The notes under the pieces were generated by a model. That model worked only from the letters and a program-made list of their open reading frames with translations. It made no database searches and was not told where the DNA came from. Source: Desulfurococcales archaeon (GTDB lineage: Archaea; Thermoproteota; Thermoprotei_A; Sulfolobales; NBVN01). Taken from it: a stretch of 51,428 nucleotides of DNA. The stretch lies in assembly GCA_015521325.1 (NCBI GenBank), contig WAOK01000007.1:1-51428 (forward strand). Reading direction: 5' to 3'. Positions within the stretch are counted from its first letter, which is position 1. Each line of letters starts with the position of its first letter. A program made the position numbers and the translations under genes. Below, in pieces: positions 48,119 through 51,428 of this stretch.

Positions 48119-49720
48119 ATGGCCCTGAGCGCTCAGGGAAGGCCTGTGGCGGAGTTCAAGGGGATATCGCCAGCGCAGTTCTTCTACAAGAACAAGCAGT
48201 TGGCTGGTTTTCAGAACAGGGTAAGGGCCCTCTACCAAACAATAAGGGAGCTGGTCGAGAACGCCCTAGACGCCACAGACACACACATGATCCTCCCCAC
48301 CATCAAGGTCGACATCACCCCCGACGGGGAGGACGGTGTTTTCAGGATAACTGTCGAGGATAACGGAATAGGGATACCGCCTGAGCACATACCCAACGCC
48401 TTCGGTAGGGTGCTCTACAGCTCCAAATACGTCCTCAGGCAGACAAGAGGCACATTTGGCCTTGGTGTGAAGATGGCCGTGCTATATGCACAGAGCGAGA
48501 CCGGGAGCCCTGTCGAGGTGTACTCGACGCCGATAGGTAGGAAGCGGGTGTTCCACTACAAAATAAAGATCGATATCGAGAAGAACGTTCCAATAATACT
48601 GGAGGAGGGCTCGTACCCAAGCGGCGACGCCAGATGGCACGGAACCAGAGTCTCTATCAGGTTAACTGGCGACTGGGGGAGGGCTAAGAACAAGATCTAC
48701 GAGTACTTCAAGCGAACGGCAATAATCGTTCCTTACTCGGAGATAGTCTTTAGTGATCCCGAGGGCAACATTTTCTATTTTGAGCGGGCTACCACGAAGC
48801 TGCCGCGCCCTCCGAGGGTTACTAAGCCGCACCCGCACGGCGCGGACATAGAGCTAATTAACGATATGATAAAGAACACCAAGGCCAGGACGATAAAGGA
48901 CTTCCTCATAAAGGAGTTCCAGAGCATAGGTGAGGTAACCGCTAGGAAGATACTCGAGCTAGCGGGCATAAAGCCCTCGACGCCGCCGAAGTCGCTAAAG
49001 ACACACCAGATCGAGAGGCTTGTCAGGGCTTTCAGGTCGTTCAAGGGGATAAGGCCGCCGAGGGGCGATCACCTCTCCCCGATAGGCGAGGACATAATAA
49101 AGATAGGTCTTAAGGCCATACTCAAGCCCGAGTACGTCGATGCCGTGACGAGGAGGCCGGCCGTTCACGAGGGCCACGCATTCATAGTTGAGGCGGGCAT
49201 AGCCTACGGCGGCGCGATCAAGTCCTCCGACACACCCCTCCTGCTCAGGTACGCCAACAAGATACCCCTGCTCTACGACGAGACGGCTGACGTGTCCTAC
49301 AAGGTTCTGTGGAAGATCAGCACATCGAAGGACAGGCTTGACTGGTCACAGTACGAGGTCTCGTTCCCCGCCCCGATAGCGGTGCTCGTCCACATATGCA
49401 GTACGAAGATACCCTACAAGGGCGTTGGTAAGGAGTCGATAGCGGATGTCCCCGAGATCGAGAGGGAGATAGAGGCAGCCCTCAGGCACCTGCTCAGGGG
49501 GCTGAAGAGGTACCTCCTTAAGAAGAAGAAGGAGATGGAGGAGAGCTCGAGGGCCGTGGCGATAGCTAAGTACATACCCGACATAGCCCAGTCCCTCGCG
49601 TACATCACGAAGAAGGGCGACCCTGACGAGATAGCTAAGAAGCTTCTTGAGATGCTGAATCAGAGGCTGAGGAACGTAAAGATCAGGAGCATAGACGAGG
49701 TCGTTGTTAAGATAGAGTGA
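48119..49720 (+). CDS. top6B: DNA topoisomerase VI subunit B
   Basis: 533 aa; GHKL ATPase RELVENALDATDTHMILPTIKVDI...VEDNGIGIPPEHIPNAFGRVLYSSKY...QTRGTFGLGVKMAVLYAQ. Confidence 0.97.
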   Translation: MALSAQGRPVAEFKGISPAQFFYKNKQLAGFQNRVRALYQTIRELVENALDATDTHMILPTIKVDITPDGEDGVFRITVEDNGIGIPPEHIPNAFGRVLYSSKYVLRQTRGTFGLGVKMAVLYAQSETGSPVEVYSTPIGRKRVFHYKIKIDIEKNVPIILEEGSYPSGDARWHGTRVSIRLTGDWGRAKNKIYEYFKRTAIIVPYSEIVFSDPEGNIFYFERATTKLPRPPRVTKPHPHGADIELINDMIKNTKARTIKDFLIKEFQSIGEVTARKILELAGIKPSTPPKSLKTHQIERLVRAFRSFKGIRPPRGDHLSPIGEDIIKIGLKAILKPEYVDAVTRRPAVHEGHAFIVEAGIAYGGAIKSSDTPLLLRYANKIPLLYDETADVSYKVLWKISTSKDRLDWSQYEVSFPAPIAVLVHICSTKIPYKGVGKESIADVPEIEREIEAALRHLLRGLKRYLLKKKKEMEESSRAVAIAKYIPDIAQSLAYITKKGDPDEIAKKLLEMLNQRLRNVKIRSIDEVVVKIE

Positions 49721-49731
49721 GGTGGTGGGGG

Positions 49732-51428
49732 ATGTCACTGACATCAAAGAAGGATGTGAGGGCTAGGAGGAAGGCGCTTCAGGCGCTTAGGAGGAGGTTC
49801 ATGAAGATACTGCACATGATAGAGAGGGGGAAGCCTCCGGTAATAAGCATCAGGAAGAGGGTGCTCGCGAACGTTTACTACGACCCGGAGAAGGGCATAC
49901 TGAGGTTGGGCGAGAGGAAGCTCGTTAGGGAGTTCCTCGACCAGAAGGAGGCCAAGAAGTTCATGCAGACACTTCTCATGGCCAAGATAATCGCTGAGGC
50001 CCTCGAGAACGACGAGTACCCGACCATAAGGGATCTCTACTACAGGGGCAAGCACTCCATCGTCTACCGCAACCTCGTGACCGGGAGGATCGAGTACGAG
50101 AACACCTGGGACGAGCAGAGCGAGTCGGACTCAGTGATCCGGGACATAGAGGTATTCATCGACATGCTGAGGGAGGAGATGCTCATACTAAGCAAAGAGA
50201 AAGGTAAGGTAGTCGGGGACATGAGGATAAGATCCGGCGACGACGTCATAGACCTCAGCAAGATGGGCCACGGAGCATACGCGATCGAGCCAACCCCGGA
50301 CTTCATAGAGTTCCTCGACGTAGGGGCAGAATTCGTCCTAATAGTCGAGAAAGACGCCGTATTCCAGCAGCTGCACAGAGCAGGGTTCTGGAAAAAGTAC
50401 AAAGCACTCCTCATAACAAGCGCCGGCCAGCCGGACAGGGCCACGAGAAGATTCGTTAGGAGACTTAATCAAGAGCTGAAGCTCCCGGTATACATACTTA
50501 CTGACAGCATCCCCGCCGACGAGGTCGTCGTCGTTAAGGACCTGCGCACTGGTGAGGTAATGATCGGGCCTGTTGAGGAATTAATAGGGAAGTACTTCAA
50601 GAACGGCACACTTAAGGAGAGAGCTATAGCCCCTCTAGCCGTTCCGTCATGGAATCCGGTCAACGGGAGGATAGAGTGGCAACCCATAGGTTACGCGTAT
50701 AGGCACCACATCAGGGAGAAGATACTGAGACTTAGGCTTAGGGGCAGAGGTATTGTAAGGGTAACCAAGGCCCACTCTCTCTTCGTGTTCAGGAATGGGA
50801 GAATAGTTGTAGAGCCTGCACACAAGATCAAGCCAGGTGACTACGTACTCATAGCTGAAAGGCTGCCTCTCCTGTCTGGTGACGGGGGTTACCGCGTAAT
50901 AAATGTGGCAAGGACGCTCCTCAGCAACAAGGAGGTATACAGTCCCCACTTTAGGCTAGAGAGCACTCTCTGGCTCGGTTTCGAAGAAGGTATCGAGATA
51001 AGGCTGAAGGAAGCAAACGAGGAGGATCTCGAGAAAGCAAACTACGTGAGGCTCTCCCGCTCGGGGAACAGGGTACATAACAAGATAGTTGTTGACGAGG
51101 AGATTGCGTGGGTGCTCGGACTCTTCACTGCAGAGGGGAGCGCGTCGAACGGGAGGTACATAACATTCAACCTAGGGCCTCACGGGGCTGAGAAAGCTGA
51201 GAGGCTAAGGAGAATAATAAAGGAGAGATTCGGCGTCGAACCCGTGATCGATAGGAAGAGAGGAATAAGGGTAACCGTGATGTCCCGCATAATCTACATG
51301 CTCTTCAAGTCACTGGGAGTCCTAGGCAATGCAAGAACCAAGAGGGTGCCGCAGGTAATAATGAACTCCCCTAGGACGGTGATGCTCTCATATCTGAGAG
51401 GGCTTTTCGACGGCGACGGAAGCATAGA
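49732..51428 (+). CDS. top6A: DNA topoisomerase VI subunit A precursor containing an intein (3' end beyond window)
   Basis: MSLTSKKDVRARRKALQALRRRF...YPTIRDLYYRGKHSIVYR...GAYAIEPTPDFIEFLDVGAEFVLIVEKDAVFQQL...KLPVYILTD then abruptly intein sequence; open to window end, not in the ORF track. Confidence 0.93.
   Translation, partial: MSLTSKKDVRARRKALQALRRRFMKILHMIERGKPPVISIRKRVLANVYYDPEKGILRLGERKLVREFLDQKEAKKFMQTLLMAKIIAEALENDEYPTIRDLYYRGKHSIVYRNLVTGRIEYENTWDEQSESDSVIRDIEVFIDMLREEMLILSKEKGKVVGDMRIRSGDDVIDLSKMGHGAYAIEPTPDFIEFLDVGAEFVLIVEKDAVFQQLHRAGFWKKYKALLITSAGQPDRATRRFVRRLNQELKLPVYILTDSIPADEVVVVKDLRTGEVMIGPVEELIGKYFKNGTLKERAIAPLAVPSWNPVNGRIEWQPIGYAYRHHIREKILRLRLRGRGIVRVTKAHSLFVFRNGRIVVEPAHKIKPGDYVLIAERLPLLSGDGGYRVINVARTLLSNKEVYSPHFRLESTLWLGFEEGIEIRLKEANEEDLEKANYVRLSRSGNRVHNKIVVDEEIAWVLGLFTAEGSASNGRYITFNLGPHGAEKAERLRRIIKERFGVEPVIDRKRGIRVTVMSRIIYMLFKSLGVLGNARTKRVPQVIMNSPRTVMLSYLRGLFDGDGSI
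50506..51428 (+). mobile_element. Intein with LAGLIDADG homing endonuclease in Topo VI subunit A (partial)
   Basis: Starts S-IPADEVVVVKDLRTGEVMIGPVEEL (block A-like), VRVTKAHSLFVFRNGRIVVEPAHKIKPGDYVLI (block B-like), WVLGLFTAEGSAS and YLRGLFDGDGSI (the two LAGLIDADG motifs). Confidence 0.92.

Follow-up and report, generated by a model that had tools for sequence, protein, structure and literature searches.

A Ser1-type LAGLIDADG intein between the Toprim DxD aspartates of archaeal topoisomerase VI subunit A

The gene for topoisomerase VI (Topo VI) subunit A of a heat-loving Desulfurococcales archaeon carries an insert that we identify, with little room for doubt, as a class 1, Ser1-type intein with a nested two-motif LAGLIDADG homing endonuclease, situated between the two aspartates of the DxD motif of the Toprim domain. 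This is a known kind of intein at an insertion site that is new or at least one that we could not find described: the first-pass annotation, made from the DNA alone, knew of no well-described intein at this position, and our search of the open-licence literature likewise returned no description of a Top6A intein at the DxD site. The one mention found is in a 2022 study, which refers to several Top6A and Top6B sequences with inteins that were removed manually, with no sites given in that passage (PMC9348778). Among the NCBIfam models (June 2026), intein-containing versions exist for GyrA and Tes, and none was returned for Topo VI A.

The stretch of DNA analysed here (the window) comprises 51,428 bases and represents the entire contig C5 of an assembly of 103 contigs that is 99.8% complete. 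Its last gene is the Topo VI A open reading frame (ORF; 49717-51426, forward strand), which stays open up to the contig end and has GTG 49717 or ATG 49732 as candidate start codons; the gene for subunit B lies immediately upstream and overlaps the start of subunit A (table 1). ORF residues 8-269 align with the solved Topo VI A 2zbk_A, and both the winged-helix N domain with the catalytic Tyr region and the Toprim domain were recognized (PF04406, PF21180, 2zbk_A, and 1d3y). Residues 206-267 match positions 1-62 of the 170 in the Pfam model TOP6A-Spo11_Toprim, and the model match ends there: after ILTD, 2zbk_A goes on with ADPYGW, whereas the window protein goes on with SIPADEVVVVKD. That the extein stops at KLPVYILTD, inside the Toprim DxD, had been claimed in the first-pass annotation and is borne out by alignments with Topo VI A structures: in the 1d3y alignment the Asp at position -1 of the intein corresponds to the first Asp of the DxD (the equivalent of D249), and the Asp at +2 is the second. 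The window includes the Toprim Glu and the first Asp, the second Asp being visible only in relatives. M. jannaschii Top6A binds Mg through D249 and E197, the counterparts of D288 and E233 in Spo11; the ligands seen in the Spo11 structure are D288 and D290 (PMC11746154). Given its insertion between the DxD Asps, the whole intein (476 residues in a congener, see below) parts both metal-site Asps in the precursor. This position is striking yet follows a rule, because inteins generally insert near active sites, with a mean distance of 8.3 Å compared with 21.1 Å for other Cys, Ser, or Thr sites (PMC3359363).

Table 1. Features of the Topo VI locus and of the intein in the window.
Feature	Coordinates	Strand	Remarks
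Topo VI subunit B gene	48119..49720	+	Topo-VIb_trans E 8.4e-59, plus HATPase_c
Topo VI subunit A N-extein	49717..50505	+	2zbk_A E 6.8e-115; PF21180, PF04406, PF20768
Glu of EKDAVF	50347..50349	+	Equivalent of metal ligand E197 of M. jannaschii Top6A (1d3y alignment; role: PMC11746154)
Extein end LPVYILTD	50482-50505	+	Last D (50503-50505) is the first Asp of DxD
Intein, N-terminal 307 aa only	50506..51428	+	91% ORF identity to the congener G001; Intein_splicing, LAGLIDADG_3; PI-PkoII match
Ser1, block A nucleophile	50506..50508	+	Ser in 22/22 homologues
Block B TKAHSLF (TxxH)	50764..50784	+	TxxH in 22/22 homologues; TKAH at 50764-50775
First LAGLIDADG motif LGLFTAEG	51115..51138	+	Acidic residue intact (alignment)
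Second LAGLIDADG motif LRGLFDGDG	51394..51420	+	Acidic residue intact (alignment); contig ends 8 bases further

The intein start had been placed at the Ser codon at 50506, a coordinate that proved exact, and LGLFTAEG and LRGLFDGDG had been correctly read as two LAGLIDADG motifs: both were located in the window ORF, with their acids kept. As the window is a whole contig, it stops after the 5' two-thirds of the intein; the remaining intein sequence and the C-extein are missing from it, and neither was found on the other contigs of the assembly. The one weak match there to the missing 3' part stems from the C-terminus of a different intein of this genome (L068, G000:C67:10077-10241), which ends in GIVVHN, followed by TTLLDKIRGTAVV, and whose host frame appears to be that of an IF2-like GTPase (IF2/eIF5B type).

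The missing part is supplied by a genome of the same genus (G001; Desulfurococcales archaeon MAG, contig JALSOP010000035.1), which matches all 570 residues of the window ORF at 91% identity and so rules out chance or a misread frame. Its Topo VI A frame is complete at 949 aa: YVITD is followed by a 476-aa intein, running from SIPADE to GYVYDFAVPATNSFIGGYGVIYHN, and then by the C-extein, giving the C-terminal splice block and the Ser+1 (HN, then SDPYG). The first-pass annotation had asked whether a C-terminal HN and a +1 Ser, Thr, or Cys precede DPxG, and HN followed by SDPYG is indeed found in all 17 complete homologues. An empty-site comparison is available within another genus, where G058, as compared with G049, has a clean in-frame insertion of 1434 nt with flanking DNA that is about 85% identical; the insertion lies between TTGACTGAC and AGCGACCC, and the empty G049 allele reads CTGGCCGAC GCGGACCC. 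Both the G001 precursor and the G058/G049 pair thus present an in-frame insertion that is absent from orthologues and has continuous extein on either side.

Altogether, 22 Topo VI A inteins were found to occupy the identical position; 17 of them are complete, with lengths of 276-483 aa. Ser1 and TxxH occur in all 22, and the terminal His-Asn and Ser+1 in all 17 complete sequences. The intein-free alleles read TDADPYG or TDSDPYG, the +1 residue being Ala in 13 and Ser in 8 of the 21 examined. Intein-free alleles with Ser include L021 (G003), L022-L024, L031, and L025 (G010); the last is nested among intein carriers of its own genus and may reflect precise loss. In a phylum sample of 400 genomes, Topo VI A was found in 385 and the intein in at least eight, including G416 and G431 from outside the host's class; it was present in 11 of about 30 genomes sampled from the nearest family, and most relatives are without it. 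Matches to the pattern HNxDPYG in G101, G266, and G122 were rejected as chance, x being Gln or Arg rather than Ser, Thr, or Cys; G266 and G122 moreover encode an uninterrupted Topo VI A elsewhere. In some Topo VI A proteins, the C-terminal Toprim half contains additional loops (L034:6218-6781 and the C-exteins of L009, L080, and L087), where the PF21180 match is broken around 103-126; such loops are also suggested by the intein-free proteins of 430-460 aa in family f9.

The position of the intein between TD and SDPYG, after the first DxD Asp, would leave the precursor without a contiguous metal site. Splicing is predicted to proceed through an N-O acyl shift at Ser1, transesterification to Ser+1, Asn cyclization, and an O-N shift, and would join ILTD to SDPYG, restoring Topo VI A. 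No second Topo VI A gene was found in ten intein hosts, which have only one each, nor any other match in the assembly of the window; and no gene of the gyrase/Topo IV A family (PF00521) was found in eight intein hosts, that of the window included, by a search that was positive in 12 of 14 reference genomes used as a control. Neither an intein-free copy nor a gyrase was therefore found as a back-up in the hosts tested, and this strengthens the reading that the Topo VI activity of the host would depend on protein splicing. If Topo VI is the hosts' only type II topoisomerase, splicing would be essential for life.

An alternative reading is that the intein doubles as a posttranslational switch, keeping a DNA-cutting sole type II topoisomerase inactive until a splicing condition (temperature, redox, or metal) is met. 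The insertion divides the catalytic metal motif of what is apparently the sole type II topoisomerase, the splicing residues are retained even in mini-inteins of 276-291 aa without an endonuclease, and conditional splicing is documented for other archaeal inteins (PMC5790916). However, inteins in general tend to lie close to active sites (PMC3359363), a host in need of the enzyme would be expected to keep splicing in any case, and the absence of the intein from most relatives means that it is not required for regulation; we consider a switch improbable.

The distribution of the intein fits homing, in which the endonuclease would cleave, at this same site, those Topo VI A alleles that lack the intein and so spread the element. 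As judged by eye from the alignment, the window and eight further alleles (G001, G021, G058, G009, G034, G324, G433, and G431) retain both endonuclease catalytic acids, at least one of the two is lost in G002, G017, G022, G025, G376, G392, G416, G011, and an Acidilobaceae MAG, and the whole endonuclease domain is absent from G006, G013, and S141_106; the splicing residues checked never vary. About half of the alleles have lost the endonuclease or carry a degenerate one, so that many copies can probably no longer move. Between the genome of the window (G000) and G001, dN/dS is 0.025 for the extein, 0.067 for the N-terminal splicing part, and 0.20 for the endonuclease part. Synonymous divergence from the congener (L034) is 0.47-0.62 in the intein (window 50506-51426) as against 0.26 in the N-extein, which may mean that the intein has had a separate history or that codon usage in the extein is biased.

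Mapping intein presence onto the host-protein tree requires at least ten changes, seven of which are forced by well-supported branches. In the intein tree, the window allele clusters with the G021 and G376 alleles, the latter from a host of another family, and the inteins of G058 and G392, whose hosts lie outside the host's family, fall with inteins from within it. G021 and G009 are sister hosts (100/99), but a tree that keeps their inteins together is rejected (AU p 0.0005); it should be noted that this pair was selected post hoc from the tree, and that support is weak for many intein-tree branches. Patchy presence and disagreement between intein and host trees are as expected for a horizontally homing element, and the conflict is most simply read as the usual homing cycle, in which the element is repeatedly acquired by horizontal transfer, decays, and is lost. 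No convincing virus or plasmid carrier was found: the search gave one IMG/VR match at 27% and weak phage and plasmid matches to other inteins or endonucleases.

The assignment to the inteins is consistent across methods. On the complete protein, Pfam returns Intein_splicing with 63 bits (cut-off 35.8) and LAGLIDADG_3 with 44.8 (cut-off 22.5), and the family profile matches PI-PkoII across both halves (E 2.6e-47). The predicted model of the G001 intein (pLDDT 91, pTM 0.91) finds PI-PkoII as its best PDB match (E 1.3e-30, TM 0.74) and also matches TliVMA, so that the HINT splicing fold is indicated both by likeness to solved inteins and by the Intein_splicing score. When the 60 nearest genomes were searched, the closest inteins outside Topo VI, at about 190 bits, were those of type II/IV secretion ATPases; for comparison, the window's and the other Topo VI A alleles that keep the endonuclease score 430-710 bits. 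The same archaeal family is rich in inteins: secretion ATPases with one or two per protein were seen at L048-L053 and L060 (G020, G015, G018, G021, G009, and G049), and further inteins in RFC, a MoxR-like ATPase, and AtpA.

These relationships bear on whether the element could derive from a DNA polymerase B intein that left the DTD motif by ectopic transfer and targeted the similar DxD-coding sequence. The best solved relative, PI-PkoII, is a DNA polymerase intein, but the nearest non-Topo VI inteins in the archaeal family belong to T2SSE secretion ATPases and not to polymerases, and inteins of the PI-PkoII class occupy another polymerase motif, between N and S before YYG rather than at DTD; we hold this origin to be very unlikely. 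Least credible, and largely refuted already, is a gene that was broken or misassembled (a chimeric contig end or a pseudogene), the true Topo VI A lying elsewhere: the frame does stop at the contig end, the assembly yields no C-extein, and several further intein alleles are likewise cut at contig ends, but the congener has the identical junction in a complete precursor at 91% identity, the 99.8% complete assembly contains no other Topo VI A match, and the extein is under strong purifying selection. Contigs end inside the intein in 5 of the 22 cases (L001, L006, L013, L038, and L083), and a C-terminal piece fitting the G021 intein lies on a separate contig, C113; these cuts could stem from mixed populations with and without the intein confusing assembly, or merely from short contigs.

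A genuine intein at this site adds a host gene and a position to the intein catalogue, namely the Mg-binding DxD of the enzyme family ancestral to the meiotic Spo11. The series of alleles at one site in related archaea (empty, with an apparently intact endonuclease, degenerate, and mini-intein) should be useful for tests of the homing cycle, and the Ser1-type mini-inteins of 276-291 aa, probably heat-stable, may serve in protein ligation. For annotation, it is a warning that the Topo VI A of such genomes can be interrupted by an intein or cut within one.

Among known systems, PI-PkoII (2cw7; Thermococcus kodakarensis DNA polymerase) is the best match to the Topo VI A intein by sequence, profile, and fold, being likewise a two-motif LAGLIDADG intein that shares its domain order and HN end; it differs in host gene and site, and shares only about 22% identity in the structural alignment. 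The T2SSE/KlbA-like secretion ATPase inteins of the same archaeal family match over the full length and have the same Ser1 and HN ends, but are about 26-28% identical over that length, have Thr at +1, and reside in another host protein. Inteins are also known in Top6B of Halobacteria (PMC4071816), which concerns the other subunit of the same enzyme and not the Toprim site of subunit A. The Top6A and Top6B inteins mentioned in PMC9348778, for which the passage concerned states neither site, sequence, nor organism, may include the Topo VI A allele described here.
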